From the NCBI GenBank assembly GCA_900473915.1, contig UCNG01000002.1, positions 129,078 to 193,077 of the forward strand: a stretch of DNA of 64,000 nt, written 5' to 3'. The position numbers were made by a program, and so were the translations under genes. Source of the DNA: Hyphomicrobiales bacterium (GTDB lineage: Bacteria; Pseudomonadota; Alphaproteobacteria; Rhizobiales; Rhizobiaceae). The notes under the pieces were generated by a model. It was not told the DNA's origin, did no database searches, and was given only the letters and a program-made list of their open reading frames with translations. This document shows, one piece after another, positions 4,487 to 10,876 of this stretch (positions are counted from its first letter, which is position 1; each line of letters opens with the position of its first letter).

Positions 4487-5799
4487 GCAACGCGGCGGCA
4501 GCAAAATCCGGGGACAAGGCAAAGGTAGCCCAAAAGGCTCCGAAGTCGGGTCCATTCTCGGCCTATGAGCGGATGATCGCCTGGCGATATCTGCGTGCGC
4601 GCCGCCGCGAGACTTTCATCTCGGTCATTGCCGGTTTTTCCTTCACCGGCATCATGCTGGGCGTGGCGACCCTCATCATTGTCATGGCGGTGATGAACGG
4701 CTTCCGCGCCGAGCTTCTTTCGCGCATTCTCGGCATCAACGGCCATCTCATCATGCAGCCGATTGACCGTCCGCTGGACGATTATGCCGATCTCATCAAG
4801 CGGATCGACGGCATTTCCGGCATCAAGTTCGCCATTCCCGTGGTGGAAGGGCAGGCGCTTGTGCAGGGCAATATCGGCGCTGGCAACGGCGCGCTGATCC
4901 GGGGCTTGCGTGAGGAAGATCTCGAAAAGCTCAAGCTCGTTTCCACCAATATTCGCCAGGGCACGCTCCAGGGCTTCGATCAGGCCGGCGGCGTCGCCAT
5001 CGGCACCCGCATGGCGGAAAATCTCGGCCTTTCCATCGGCGATACGCTGCGCGTGATCTCGCCCGATGGCGATGTGACCCCCTTCGGCGTCAATCCGCGC
5101 GTGAAGGCCTATCCGATTGTCGCCATCTTCGAGATCGGCATGTCGGAATATGACGCGTCGATTGTCATGATGCCGCTTTCCGAGGCGCAGCTTTTCTTCA
5201 ATCAGGAAGGCAAGGTGCAATCGCTTGAAATCTTTGTCGATAATCCCGACAAGGTGGATGCGATGCGCGCGCCTGTGGAAGAGGCGGCAGGACGCCAGCT
5301 CTCGCTCGTCGACTGGCGCCAGCGCAACCAGACTTTCTTCTCGGCGCTGGAAGTCGAGCGCAATGTCATGTTCATGATCCTGACGCTGATCGTGCTCGTG
5401 GCAGCGCTCAACATCATTTCCGGCCTCATCATGCTGGTGAAGGACAAGGGGCATGATATTGCGATCCTGCGCACCATGGGGGCAACCCGCGGCGCGGTGA
5501 TGCGCATATTCCTGATGACGGGTGCTGCCATCGGCGTCACCGGCACGGTGGCCGGTGTGGTTCTGGGCGTCGTCGTGTGCCTCAATGTCGAGCGTATCCG
5601 CGAGTTTTTCTCGTGGCTTTCCGGCACCACGCTTTTCAATCCGGAACTTTATTTCCTGAGTCAACTGCCTGCGAAAATGGACCCGGGTGAGACGATTTCC
5701 GTCATCGTCATGGCTCTGGTGCTTTCGTTCATCGCCACCATTTTCCCGGCCTGGCGCGCTGCCAAGCTCGATCCGGTCGAAGCATTGAGGTATGAATAA
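4483..5799 (+). CDS. lolC: Lipoprotein-releasing ABC transporter permease LolC/LolE
   Basis: The inner-membrane permease of the Lol machine, which extracts outer-membrane lipoproteins for transfer to LolA. It has 438 residues and the MacB/FtsX layout: one transmembrane helix at about 45-72, a large periplasmic domain, then three helices at about 293-315, 340-365 and 398-420. The N-terminal 25 residues are Lys/Ala-rich and cytosolic. Only one permease gene is present next to lolD, so it probably acts as a homodimer as in many non-enteric bacteria; the symbol lolC rather than lolE is a convention. Its stop overlaps the lolD start (TAATG). Confidence 0.92.
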
Positions 5800-6482
5800 T
5801 GGCGGCTGAAATCATCATGCGGCTGCAACGGGTCGGCCGCGCCTATAAGGAAGCCGACCGTGAACTGGTGATCCTCAAGGATGCCGATTTCACGCTTCGT
5901 CGCGGCGAGATGGTTGCGCTTGTCGCGCCATCGGGCGCGGGCAAGTCAACCTTGCTGCACACAGCAGGCCTTCTGGAACGTCCCGATGAGGGAGAGGTTT
6001 TCCTTGACGGGCGCTCCTGCAGCAAGCTTTCCGACGATGAGCGGACGGCGGTGCGCCGCAACGACATCGGCTTCGTCTATCAGTTCCATCACCTCCTGCC
6101 GGAGTTTTCCGCGCTGGAAAACGTGATGATGCCGCAAATGATCCGCGGATTGTCGAAGAAGCAGGCAGCGGAGCGCGCACAGCAGCTTCTTGAATATATG
6201 AAGATTGGCAAGCGTGCCTCGCATCGCCCGTCGGAACTTTCCGGCGGCGAGCAGCAGCGTGTCGCCATTGCCCGTGCCGTCGCCAATGCGCCGCTCGTCC
6301 TTCTGGCGGACGAGCCGACCGGCAACCTCGACCCGACGACATCCTCTTATGTCTTCGGTGCTCTGGAAGCGCTCGTGCGCCAGTCGGGACTTGCTGCCCT
6401 CATCGCCACCCACAATCACGAACTGGCTGGCCGCATGGACCGGCGCGTGACGCTGAAGGACGGCAAGGTCGTCGACCTGTAA
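5799..6482 (+). CDS. lolD: Lipoprotein-releasing system ATP-binding protein LolD
   Basis: A 227-residue ABC ATPase powering lipoprotein release. The Walker A region is APSGAGKST (residues 43-51); its first position is Ala instead of the usual Gly. The Q-loop is in [11 protein letters not shown], the signature is LSGGEQQR, Walker B is VLLADEP and the switch histidine is in ATHNHE. It shares one base with the end of lolC and closes the proS-lolC-lolD run. The 900-base gap downstream is filled with palindromes and a LexA-box microgene before dnaE. Confidence 0.95.
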
Positions 6483-6502
6483 TATTTCTAGATCACCTTG
6501 GC

Positions 6503-6550
6503 ACCTCATCCTGAGAAGCCGCCGCAGGCGGCGTCTCGAAGGCGAGGTGC
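6503..6550. repeat. Interspersed palindrome, copy 1
   Basis: A near-perfect palindrome of about 48 bases. Outer arms are GCACCTC and GAGGTGC; the core is GCCGCC-GCA-GGCGGC. A second copy lies at 6685. It begins 20 bases after lolD and may act as a transcript 3'-end hairpin. Confidence 0.8.
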
Positions 6551-6684
6551 GGTTTCCGCTATCAGCGTGTTCCGGCCTGATCGACGCTCTGGCCAGTTGC
6601 TTTGGGTTGAATGTACTCAGGGCAGATGCGGTCCGCTGAATTGCATTTCTATTTGGGCATCGCGTTGTGCCCGAGCGCGGCCCA

Positions 6685-6735
6685 GCACCTCATCGTGAGG
6701 AGCCGCCGCAGGCGGCGTCTCGAAGAGCGAGGTGC
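6685..6735. repeat. Interspersed palindrome, copy 2
   Basis: This shares about 90% of its bases with the copy at 6503 and has identical outer arms (GCACCTC / GAGGTGC) and core. The two copies are in the same orientation and 134 bases apart. Confidence 0.8.
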
Positions 6736-6865
6736 CGCTCCGCCTGAACAGGCCCTCGTTCAAAGCCCGGCAGCACTACCATCCCCCTGTTCTTCCGTGG
6801 TCCGTGCTGCGGTTGTGTATTCACTATTCGTAAACCCTAAAATGAATGCCGTTGCAAAACGGGTG

Positions 6866-6889
6866 TTGACTTTGGAACAAAAATAGAAC
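6866..6889 (+). promoter_or_regulatory. LexA (SOS) box overlapping a -35 element
   Basis: GAAC-AAAAATA-GAAC at 6875-6889 is the reverse complement of GTTC-N7-GTTC, the established LexA operator of alphaproteobacteria. A TTGACT -35-like hexamer at 6866-6871 lies immediately upstream, so LexA bound here would block the promoter. I see no good -10 at the ideal distance. The box is 38 bases before the ATG of the 28-residue ORF at 6928. Confidence 0.7.
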
Positions 6890-6927
6890 AAAAAATAAAC
6901 ATACGTGAACACAGAGGAGTTTCTCAC

Positions 6928-7014
6928 ATGACCGATCTCGTCCACGACGTTCTGTCTTTCATTTCGGTAAGCCTGTTCATTGCAACCTTCGCCATCTGGG
7001 TGAGCGCGATTTGA
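6928..7014 (+). CDS. SOS-controlled 28-residue membrane microprotein (SidA-like candidate)
   Basis: A very short ORF encoding a 28-residue peptide: a short acidic/polar start (MTDLVHDV) followed by one hydrophobic helix rich in Phe, Ile, Val, Leu and Ala (about residues 9-27) with a Trp near the end. AGAGGAG at 6913-6919 is a strong ribosome binding site, 8 bases before ATG. A canonical LexA box lies just upstream. In Caulobacter, SidA is an SOS-induced 29-residue inner-membrane peptide that blocks division through FtsW; size, topology and regulation match that description. Sequence homology cannot be tested here, so the function is inferred from architecture alone. Confidence 0.62.
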   Translation: MTDLVHDVLSFISVSLFIATFAIWVSAI

Positions 7015-7022
7015 AGGAAATA

Positions 7023-7116
7023 GAGCATGTCTCCCAAAGGCGGGAACCGGTTTTGGGGAAAAGGACATGCGTAAAAAGATAGGGCATTTCCGGTGATTTC
7101 GGAAAACTGGAAGTGC
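7023..7116. repeat. RIME-like composite hairpin repeat
   Basis: GAGCATGTC (7023) pairs with GACATGC (to 7070) around a CCC...GGGAACCGG core. After a short A-rich linker comes a second element GCATTTCC...GGAAGTGC (7084-7115). The same two-part arrangement recurs at 43623-43711, and the first half recurs at 39857 (inverted) and, diverged, at 62944. Confidence 0.75.
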
Positions 7117-7384
7117 TTCGGCGGGTTCCTGTGAACCCGCGCCAGGGCGGCGATAGTCTTACTGGACATCGCCACATCATTCCCCGAAACTGATGCTTTC
7201 AGGCGACAGAGTCGCCAGCCGTGATGAATCACGAATGTGGTTCATGCTTGAAGCAATGTGCTATCACGCGGCTACTGTATCGGCTCGAAGATCGAAATCG
7301 ATTTTCGGAAAGTCCGATGCATGGATTTGGAGCGCCGGATGTATGTCCATCCGGGCGGCTCGGCAGATGATCGGGGTCGATGGA

Positions 7385-10300
7385 ATGAGTGATGCAGCAG
7401 CAGCCAGCGCAGCAAATGACGGTGCTTTGACGCCACGTTTCGTGCATCTGCGTGTACACTCGGCCTATTCTTTGCTGGAGGGCGCATTGCCGCTCGGCAA
7501 GATCATCAAACAGGCGATTGCCGATGAGGCGCCGGCTATCGCAGTCACCGACACCAACAATCTGTTCGGTGCGCTTGAATTTGCGCAGAAGGCATCGAAG
7601 GACGGGCTGCAACCCATCATCGGTTGTCAGGTCGATGTCGCCTTCGGCGACCACAATGATAATGGCCGCAGCGTCAATCGCCGGGTTGCGCTGGACCTTG
7701 CCCCGATCGTGCTGCTCGCGGCAACGGAAGAGGGCTATGCGAACATCGTGCGGCTCGTCAGTCGCGCGTTTCTGGAAACACCGGCAGGTGATCCGGTGCA
7801 TATTGAGGCCAGCTGGCTGCCGCCATTGGCGAAAGATGTCATCGTGCTTTCCGGCGGCGCACTGGGGCCGATCGGCCGCGCTTTTGCCGCCGACCGTCCC
7901 GACAGGGCCGAGGCGCGGCTGGCTTTCCTGCGGGAAGCCTTCGGCGACAGGCTCTACGTCGAATTGCAGCGTCAGGCAGGCTACGACCGTGCGCTGGAAG
8001 CGAAGACGGTGGCGCTTGCCTATCAGATGGACCTGCCTCTGGTGGCCACCAATGAGGCGTTCTTTCTCAAGGCGGAAGATTTTGAGGCCCATGATGCGCT
8101 TCTCGCCATTGCGGAAGGTCAGATTCTCTCAAATGATGATCGCCGTCGCCTGACGCCGGATCATCATCTGAAAAGCCGTGCGGAAATGGCGGCACTCTTT
8201 GCCGATCTGCCGGAAGCGCTCGAAAACACGGTGGAGATTGCCCAGCGCTGCAGCTGGTACACGCAGACGCGCAAGCCGATCCTGCCGCGCTTCACGGGCG
8301 AATCGGACGACCCGGAAGCGGACGTTCAGGCCGAGGCTGACGAACTGGCGCGACAGGCGCGCGAAGGCCTGAAGATGCGCCTCGAAACGGCGGGCCTCGC
8401 GGAAGGCTATACGGCGGAGCAATATGCCGAGCGTCTCGAATACGAGATCGGCATCATCACCCGCATGAAGTTCCCCGGCTACTTCCTGATCGTTGCCGAC
8501 TTCATCAAATGGGCCAAGGCCCATGGCATTCCGGTCGGGCCGGGCCGTGGTTCGGGTGCCGGTTCGCTCGTCGCCTATGCGCTGACGATTACCGACGTCG
8601 ATCCGCTGCGTTTCTCGCTCCTTTTCGAACGCTTCCTCAACCCGGACCGCGTTTCGATGCCCGACTTCGATATCGATTTCTGTCAGGATCGCCGCGAAGA
8701 GGTGATCCGCTATGTGCAGGAAAAATACGGGCGCGATCAGGTTGCGCAGATCATCACTTTCGGAACCTTGCAGGCCCGTGCCGTGCTGCGCGACGTGGGG
8801 CGCGTTCTGGAAATGCCTTACGGTCAGGTCGACCGTCTCTGCAAGCTGGTGCCGCAGAACCCGGCCAATCCTGTGTCGCTGGCGCAGGCAATCGACACCG
8901 AGCCGAAGATCAACGAGGAGCGCGAGAAGGAGCCGGTCGTCGGGCGGCTTCTCGATATGGCGCTCAAGCTGGAGGGGCTTTACCGCCACGCCTCGACCCA
9001 CGCCGCCGGTATCGTGATCGGTGACCGTCCGTTGTCGGAACTGGTGCCCATGTATCGCGATCCGCGCTCCGACATGCCGGTCACCCAGTTCAACATGAAA
9101 TGGGTCGAGCAGGCGGGACTGGTCAAGTTCGACTTTCTCGGCCTCAAGACGCTGACCGTTCTGGAAACGGCGGTCAAGCTGGTGGCGCGCAAGGGCATCG
9201 AGATCGACCTGTCCCATGTGCCGCTCGATGATCCGCTCACCTATGAAATGCTGTCGCGCGGCGAAACGGTCGGCGTGTTCCAGGTTGAAAGTGCGGGTAT
9301 GCGCAAGGCGCTGCTCGGCATGCGCCCGGACCGGATCGAGGACATTATTGCGCTTGTGGCGCTGTATCGTCCCGGCCCGATGGAGAATATCCCGACCTAT
9401 AATGCGCGCAAGAACGGTGAGGAGGAGATTGCCTCCATTCACCCGAAGATCGATCACCTGATCAAGGAAACGCAAGGCGTTATCGTCTATCAGGAACAGG
9501 TGATGCAGATCGCGCAGGTGCTCTCCGGCTATTCGCTCGGTGAAGCTGACCTTCTGCGCCGCGCCATGGGCAAGAAGATCCGCGAGGAGATGGACAAGCA
9601 GCGCGTCCGTTTTGTGGATGGCGCGATTGAGGGCGGCGTCGACAAGGCGCAGGCCAACATGATCTTCGACCTGCTGGCCAAGTTCGCCGACTATGGCTTC
9701 AACAAGTCGCACGCCGCCGCTTATGCCATCGTCTCTTACCAGACAGCCTATATGAAGGCGCATTACCCGGTCGAGTTCCTCGCCGCGTCGATGACCTACG
9801 ATATGTCGAACACCGACAAGCTCAACGATTTCCGCCGCGAGGCGAACCGTCTGGGCATTGAGGTCGTGCCGCCATCGGTGATGACTTCCTTCCGTCCGTT
9901 CGAGGTTGGCGAGAAAAAGATTTTCTACTCGCTCGCCGCCATCAAGGGCGTCGGCGAGGCGGCTGTCGATCATATTGTCGAGGTGCGAGCCGAAAAGCCT
10001 TTCGAAAGCCTTGAGGATTTCTGCGAGCGGGTCGATCCGCGCATCGTCAACCGGCGGGTGCTGGAAAGCCTCATCAATGCCGGCGCGATGGATTGCTTCG
10101 GTCGCGAGCGCCCGGCCATGAGTGCGGGCATGGACCGCATCATGGGCTTTGCCCAGCGCACGCAGGAAAATGCCGCAAGCGGCCAGTCCGATATTTTCGG
10201 CCTGTCCGGCGCGCCCAAGGAAAAGCTTATCCTGCCGCAGGCAGCACCTTGGCTGCCATCGGAAATGCTGCATCGCGAATTTCAGGCGGTCGGCTTCTAT

Positions 10301-10876
10301 CTGTCGGCGCATCCGCTCGATGAATATCGCGACGTGCTGAACCGCATGCGCGTTCAAAGCTGGGCGGATTTCTCCGCCGCCGTCAAGCGCGGCGCCAATG
10401 CCGGGCGTCTGGCGGGCACCGTCACAGCACGGCAGGAGCGCAAGACCCGCACCGGCAACAAGATGGGTATTGTGTCATTGTCGGACGCCAGCGGCCAGTT
10501 CGAGGCGGTGCTGTTTTCAGAAGGCCTGGCGCAATATCGCGATCTGCTGGAAAGCGGCAAGTCGGTGGTGATCACGGTTCAGGCGGAAAACCGTCCCGAA
10601 GGCATTGGCTTGCGCATCCAGACGGTGCAGTCGCTCGAAGATGAGGCCTGCCGGATGCAGAAAGCGATGCGGCTTTATCTGCGCTCGGCCGATGCGGTCC
10701 GTCATATCGCGCCGCATTTCAACACGCGCGGCGACGGGCAGGTGAGTCTCATCGTCATCAAGGATAACGGCCAGCGGGAAGTCGAGATCGAGCTGCCGCA
10801 TCGCTATCGCGTCAGTCCGCAGATCGCCAGCGCCATGAAATCCATTCAGGGCGTTGTGGACGTGGAGTTGGTTTGA
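7385..10876 (+). CDS. dnaE: DNA polymerase III alpha subunit (DnaE1)
   Basis: The replicative C-family DNA polymerase, 1163 residues from the chosen start. The PHP domain begins at HLRVHSAYSLLEG near residue 20. The palm carries PDFDIDF with catalytic aspartates near 427 and 429 and GPGRGSGAGSL upstream. The helix-hairpin-helix and OB-fold regions follow (GVGEAAVDHI; GTVTARQERKTRTG). The frame is open about 190 bases further 5', but ATG 7385 was preferred because it gives the usual length and N-terminus and has GGGG at 7373-7376. The gene stands alone, 370 bases after the microprotein gene, and ends in a hairpin terminator. Confidence 0.95.
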   Translation: MSDAAAASAANDGALTPRFVHLRVHSAYSLLEGALPLGKIIKQAIADEAPAIAVTDTNNLFGALEFAQKASKDGLQPIIGCQVDVAFGDHNDNGRSVNRRVALDLAPIVLLAATEEGYANIVRLVSRAFLETPAGDPVHIEASWLPPLAKDVIVLSGGALGPIGRAFAADRPDRAEARLAFLREAFGDRLYVELQRQAGYDRALEAKTVALAYQMDLPLVATNEAFFLKAEDFEAHDALLAIAEGQILSNDDRRRLTPDHHLKSRAEMAALFADLPEALENTVEIAQRCSWYTQTRKPILPRFTGESDDPEADVQAEADELARQAREGLKMRLETAGLAEGYTAEQYAERLEYEIGIITRMKFPGYFLIVADFIKWAKAHGIPVGPGRGSGAGSLVAYALTITDVDPLRFSLLFERFLNPDRVSMPDFDIDFCQDRREEVIRYVQEKYGRDQVAQIITFGTLQARAVLRDVGRVLEMPYGQVDRLCKLVPQNPANPVSLAQAIDTEPKINEEREKEPVVGRLLDMALKLEGLYRHASTHAAGIVIGDRPLSELVPMYRDPRSDMPVTQFNMKWVEQAGLVKFDFLGLKTLTVLETAVKLVARKGIEIDLSHVPLDDPLTYEMLSRGETVGVFQVESAGMRKALLGMRPDRIEDIIALVALYRPGPMENIPTYNARKNGEEEIASIHPKIDHLIKETQGVIVYQEQVMQIAQVLSGYSLGEADLLRRAMGKKIREEMDKQRVRFVDGAIEGGVDKAQANMIFDLLAKFADYGFNKSHAAAYAIVSYQTAYMKAHYPVEFLAASMTYDMSNTDKLNDFRREANRLGIEVVPPSVMTSFRPFEVGEKKIFYSLAAIKGVGEAAVDHIVEVRAEKPFESLEDFCERVDPRIVNRRVLESLINAGAMDCFGRERPAMSAGMDRIMGFAQRTQENAASGQSDIFGLSGAPKEKLILPQAAPWLPSEMLHREFQAVGFYLSAHPLDEYRDVLNRMRVQSWADFSAAVKRGANAGRLAGTVTARQERKTRTGNKMGIVSLSDASGQFEAVLFSEGLAQYRDLLESGKSVVITVQAENRPEGIGLRIQTVQSLEDEACRMQKAMRLYLRSADAVRHIAPHFNTRGDGQVSLIVIKDNGQREVEIELPHRYRVSPQIASAMKSIQGVVDVELV

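Follow-up and report, generated by a model that had tools for sequence, protein, structure and literature searches.

In a 64,000-nucleotide stretch of contig UCNG01000002.1 from a Hyphomicrobiales bacterium (the window), a 28-codon open reading frame (ORF) lies between a lolD-like gene and dnaE, directly behind a predicted operator of the SOS repressor LexA. We consider this micropeptide gene very probably the counterpart of Caulobacter crescentus sidA, encoding a LexA-repressed, damage-induced peptide that would block division at the FtsW complex. Comparison of sequences and neighbourhoods indicates that it is most likely an ortholog of SidA, beyond a look-alike, because the two share the slot adjacent to dnaE and similarity at the profile level. 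The earlier note had claimed a likeness to SidA in size, topology and control, against a different family background; slot and profile similarity make that likeness stronger than claimed. The unit and its syntenic neighbours comprise the following features.

6866..6871, plus strand: TTGACT, a probable −35 hexamer (direct reading; TTGAC is kept in same-genus sequences)
6875..6889, plus strand: predicted LexA operator, an exact direct repeat GAAC-N7-GAAC, GAACAAAAATAGAAC (direct reading; same-genus conservation)
6886..6900, plus strand: second LexA-type box, GAAC-N7-AAAC, with one mismatch, overlapping the first in register (box scan; same-genus loci)
6913..6919, plus strand: ribosome binding site AGAGGAG, 8 bases ahead of the ATG (direct reading)
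6928..7014, plus strand: putative SidA-type micropeptide gene, 28 codons, one predicted membrane helix, MTDLVHDVLSFISVSLFIATFAIWVSAI (reading and conservation)
5799..6482, plus strand: lolD-like ABC ATPase gene, the upstream syntenic neighbour (LSGGEQQR motif by eye; synteny)
7385..10876, plus strand: dnaE, encoding the replicative polymerase alpha subunit, the downstream syntenic neighbour (probable start, chosen by reading; synteny)

Direct reading located each element that the earlier note had described, namely the TTGACT, the exact box, the 38 bases from this box to the micropeptide ATG, the AGAGGAG and the 28-codon ORF. The start of dnaE is our own choice, an in-frame ATG within the ORF at 7193-10876, and it lies about 370 bases beyond the end of the micropeptide ORF.

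In a search of 60 genomes, the ORF was matched at E <1e-9 in all 35 genomes of the same genus; the 25 genomes of other genera gave a match in five, with the best no better than E 0.19. Over 27 distinct same-genus ORF sequences the ratio of nonsynonymous to synonymous variation (pN/pS) was 0.106, and of the 27 codons, 24 varied at the third position, 10 at the first and only one at the second, indicating that the ORF is a translated gene under selection. The ribosome site GAGGAG was found in the 35 same-genus loci, with GAAGAG instead in L023. The predicted product has 28 residues and a best 19-residue hydropathy of 2.15, which predicts one membrane helix. The earlier note had proposed looking for conservation of the box, ribosome site and ORF together with a synonymous bias, all of which appeared within the genus, and this conservation supports its picture of a LexA-controlled, translated, one-helix membrane peptide. 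Searching the peptide against Pfam, NCBIfam and PHROGs returned nothing at E ≤10, and blastn of 6483-7450 against plasmids returned 18 short matches (5-7% of the query), none over the ORF. With tblastn, one peptide searched against phages and another against plasmids gave no match, queries this short being insensitive.

The unit is flanked by imperfect palindromic repeats, noted by eye at about 6504-6550, 6689-6736 and 7027-7073, and a repeat resembling the last was also found 3′ of the ORF in several same-genus loci. The segment 6898-6919, which consists of AAACATACGTGAACA followed by the ribosome site, is strongly conserved in same-genus loci, perhaps beyond what a ribosome site needs.

The 64 kb of the window contain three exact GAAC-N7-GAAC boxes against 1.9 expected, a count of at least three being reached in 33 of 100 shuffles, and the remaining two exact boxes sit within long ORFs; significance of the box from the window alone was rejected on this comparison. 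Given that box frequency by itself is not significant, the unit is taken as real because it is conserved across the genus. An exact box occurred within 60 bases upstream of the ORF in all 36 sequences compared (the window and L001-L035), TTGAC stood 3-5 bases ahead of it in 35 of the 36, and a third half-site was present in 34 with no more than one mismatch, being exact in one. LexA control of the micropeptide gene is supported by this conservation. Tandem LexA boxes in an 11-base register were observed in L012, L109, L116-L119 and the window (6875-6900); both are exact in some species, and the window has one exact and one degenerate copy.

Beyond the genus, a first profile of 13 peptides was searched against 394 genomes of the family. 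It matched in 297 of them at E up to 1; many of these weak matches must be due to chance, and individual loci were therefore inspected. Counting exact boxes within 120 bases upstream, we found one at 22 of 23 newly fetched top matches and at 28 of 40 mid-range matches, a sample chosen mostly one per genus in which six others had a box with one mismatch and six had neither. A second profile of 38 peptides, run on 297 genomes of the order, matched at E up to 0.01 in 44; an exact box accompanied 10 of 11 further family members from this search and 15 of 18 inspected places in other families of the order, with one mismatch at the other three, these 18 being mostly the best-scoring of 35 listed. 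A lolD or dnaE motif was present at 19 of the 23 top, 24 of the 40 mid-range, 8 of the 11 further family and 17 of the 18 other-family places, in stretches often too short to span both genes. Among the mid-range matches, L073, L080, L084, L101 and L107 had neither box nor lolD/dnaE motif in the stretch inspected, and L049 was prophage-like; in L094 the exact box lay 121 bases before the match start, just beyond the 120-base limit. Divergent homologues, most with an exact box, adjoin lolD and/or dnaE in further genera and families of the order.

Outside the order we turned to synteny. A dnaE search found a match in 177 of 190 genomes of the class, and about 1 kb ahead of dnaE was sampled at 60 listed places, mostly from larger genomes. 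A GAAC-oriented box occurred in 14 of these 60 regions, and behind it a micro-ORF passed a combined length, distance and hydropathy cut in 11, compared with 3.9% of random positions passing the same micro-ORF criteria; in L228, L233 and L234 the ORF failed the cut (hydropathy of 1.37 and 1.48 in L228 and L233, below the required 1.5). A GTTC-oriented box occurred in four regions, none with a qualifying ORF on that strand. In a dnaE-locus subset with a readable motif in 20 of 30, an oriented box with a micro-ORF was found only in L152, from the window's genus, and L161.

The box-bearing region L228 led to a family of 29-residue ORFs in the Caulobacteraceae. This ORF was matched at E up to 1 in 49 of 60 genomes sampled from 22 genera, and a readable ORF of the type was found in 26 of 30 loci inspected. 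A peptide-core pattern then returned 86 stretches, titled Caulobacter, Phenylobacterium, Caulobacterales or unassigned Alphaproteobacteria and the like, 80 of which became loci with script-chosen ORF starts; as the pattern selects the peptide core, only the flanks and neighbours count as independent evidence. The ORF had 29 residues in 74 of the 80 loci and 30 in six. In 76 loci it was followed by a dnaE motif at a distance of up to about 150 bases, and 55 had an exact box within 120 bases upstream, including two of three Caulobacter vibrioides records (L310 and L348, not L329). In this family (L281-L284, L285-L364) the micropeptide gene lies very close to dnaE, making a shared transcript possible; if the two genes do share one, the replicative polymerase gene would sit behind an SOS promoter.

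Published locus tags bring C. crescentus sidA to the same place; the sources are cited by PubMed Central (PMC) accession. SidA, an SOS-induced protein of the inner membrane with 29 residues, inhibits division via FtsW, to which it binds (PMC4211646), and its gene is CCNA_02004 (PMC11034885). In the older numbering dnaE is CC1926, lexA CC1902 and recN CC1983 (PMC1839093), while lexA is also CCNA_01979 (PMC11535069) and recN ccna_02062 (PMC12700426). The offset between CC and CCNA tags is thus 77-79 on either side of dnaE, which places dnaE at CCNA_02003-02005 with sidA adjoining, and we deduce that sidA lies within about one gene of dnaE and that the 29-residue ORF of the Caulobacteraceae is SidA.

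Aligned with hhalign, the Rhizobiales and Caulobacteraceae profiles matched without gaps over 20 columns (E 1.7e-6, score 24.9), and the Rhizobiales profile also matched, over 27 columns and again without gaps, a mixed set of peptides drawn from other families and orders (E 5.4e-11, score 42.2). Controls were 150 column shuffles per set with the first column kept, plus reversed profiles. For the Caulobacteraceae set, gathered by searching with a peptide from that family itself, no shuffle of the 150 scored as well (maximum 16.4) and the reversed profile reached 8.0; for the mixed set the figures were likewise 0 of 150, 19.0 and 7.0, with the caveat that its score is partly built in because the Rhizobiales profile had been used in part to gather that set.

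Several observations weigh against reading the unit as an SOS-controlled SidA counterpart. The Rhizobiales profile found nothing convincing outside the order among 289 genomes of the class, only chance-like matches; sequence alone is therefore weak at that distance, and synteny was used instead. No GAAC-oriented box was seen in the stretch fetched for 46 of the 60 class regions ahead of dnaE, and the unit is therefore patchy in the class. Among the Caulobacteraceae-type loci, 25 of 80 lack an exact box within 120 bases, the C. vibrioides record L329 among them, and it is by locus-tag arithmetic, length and control that their 29-residue ORF is identified with SidA. In the window, boxes with one mismatch occur at background frequency (57 against 49.7 expected), so that the one-mismatch counts given above are weak support, and a sigma-70 scan found no promoter-like hexamer pair in the window, the TTGACT and box included.

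A second, prophage-like type of locus carries homologues of the peptide without the operator. Nine further homologue places (L036-L044), of 28-33 residues, were found in 8 of the 35 same-genus genomes, none having an exact LexA box within 150 bases upstream. In longer reads of two of them (L069 and L070, from L036 and L037), a homologue of about 32 residues at about position 10001 lies some 0.7 kb (L069) or 1.1 kb (L070) ahead of a gene resembling exonuclease VIII, with a RecT-like gene next; the L070 copy also lies downstream of a phage repressor. A pattern search added seven viral contigs (L371-L377) with the same homologue type. None had a LexA box within 150 bases, all seven carried a loose RecE-like motif downstream, and two carried a RecT-like motif; this set is partly redundant, since L372 repeats the DNA of L069, while L371 and L375 are identical around the gene. 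One viral match to the Caulobacteraceae-type pattern, L378, looks like chance and was rejected. The kil gene of phage lambda encodes a division inhibitor in a comparable place. We regard it as an evenly balanced question whether SidA is an old alphaproteobacterial SOS checkpoint peptide that stayed between lolD and dnaE as its sequence diverged past ordinary detection, and of which temperate phages of the genus acquired a copy lacking the LexA box in their early recombination region (RecE/RecT), where it would stop host division on their own schedule.

Other functions for a small peptide at this address were weighed against these data. TisB of Escherichia coli is an SOS-controlled single-helix micropeptide that acts as a membrane toxin, and the peptide might likewise, in the manner of TisB or DinQ, perturb or depolarise the membrane and slow growth with the divisome left unblocked. 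Size class, SOS control and the single helix agree with such a peptide, whereas its position and profile similarity to the SidA slot do not, and no Rfam family matched at 6300-7600, where an undescribed antitoxin RNA would escape such a search; we judge this explanation unlikely. Given that the ORF stands upstream of dnaE, closely so in the Caulobacteraceae, it might instead be a leader peptide whose translation tunes the downstream gene. That would sit poorly with purifying selection on the amino-acid sequence, with a distance to the dnaE motif that ranges from about 40 to several hundred bases, and with the prophage-like homologues, which have no dnaE motif in the stretches inspected and so do not occur only in cis to dnaE, leaving a leader very improbable. 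The lolD-type ATPase motif upstream in many loci would likewise suit a damage-induced small membrane partner of the Lol lipoprotein exporter or of another envelope complex, but the gene's own LexA site, its relationship to SidA and the absence of such an ATPase motif from the inspected stretches around prophage-like copies all argue the other way, and we give a Lol partner equally little credence.

If the micropeptide is a SidA counterpart, LexA would, without damage, sit on GAAC-N7-GAAC, overlapping the promoter, and keep the gene off, probably occupying the degenerate overlapping copy of the box as well. After damage, RecA-driven cleavage of LexA would free the promoter, following known SOS logic. 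The 28-residue peptide would then be made and, by analogy with SidA, insert in the inner membrane as a single helix and block septum synthesis via the FtsW/FtsI/FtsN complex, so that, as we propose, cells would elongate until repair is finished. Division arrest and FtsW binding by the micropeptide are thus inferred by analogy with SidA. Published low-confidence modelling puts SidA at TM7 of FtsW (PMC13396833). In Brucella abortus an alkylating agent induces lexA, and lexA overexpression lowers imuABC induction (PMC6813329), which documents a damage response linked to LexA in the Brucella/Ochrobactrum group, where we place the window's genus on gene content and on the rhizobial hosts of the short plasmid matches; the passages of that paper on B. 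abortus LexA do not mention the micropeptide.

Our literature search, which covered papers outside subscription, found no SidA-type peptide or SOS division inhibitor reported in alphaproteobacteria beyond Caulobacter. The LexA passages of a paper on Rhizobium etli RdsA (PMC9022086) concern a two-hybrid system, and a review (PMC9578287) names sidA a single time, in connection with C. crescentus. The present data suggest that the SidA checkpoint extends beyond the single case in which it has been studied. With a conserved candidate at a constant genomic position, SOS control of division becomes testable in rhizobia, and the natural variants of this candidate could map what SidA requires for acting on FtsW. 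Operator and synteny together could serve to locate micropeptides that have diverged in sequence, and in the phage copies the same peptide would have been put to use a second time, independently.

Among known systems, the E. coli peptides DinQ and TisB differ from the micropeptide in being membrane toxins. DinQ, compared by description only, is like it as an SOS-controlled single-transmembrane toxic peptide (PMC3567139). The Gram-positive SOS inhibitors YneA, SosA and ChiZ, also compared by description only, resemble it as small damage-induced membrane proteins acting late in division, with FtsW as a shown (YneA) or predicted target, while ChiZ differs in its LysM domain and YneA-like topology and SosA in its extended helix (PMC13396833). 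In C. crescentus, DNA damage also induces DidA, likewise a small transmembrane inhibitor of division; its control is by DriD, not LexA, and in the reported two-hybrid assay it bound FtsN but not FtsW (PMC4211646). SidA (CCNA_02004) is closest, with 29 residues against 28, one membrane helix, LexA control and a slot directly ahead of dnaE (deduced for C. crescentus), where the Caulobacteraceae ORF gives the gapless profile match. The SidA slot differs in its gap to dnaE, a few tens of bases against about 370 here, and its peptide in C. vibrioides DSM 9893 has a net charge of +1 against −2, whereas the best 19-residue hydropathy of the two peptides is alike, at 2.08 and 2.15.
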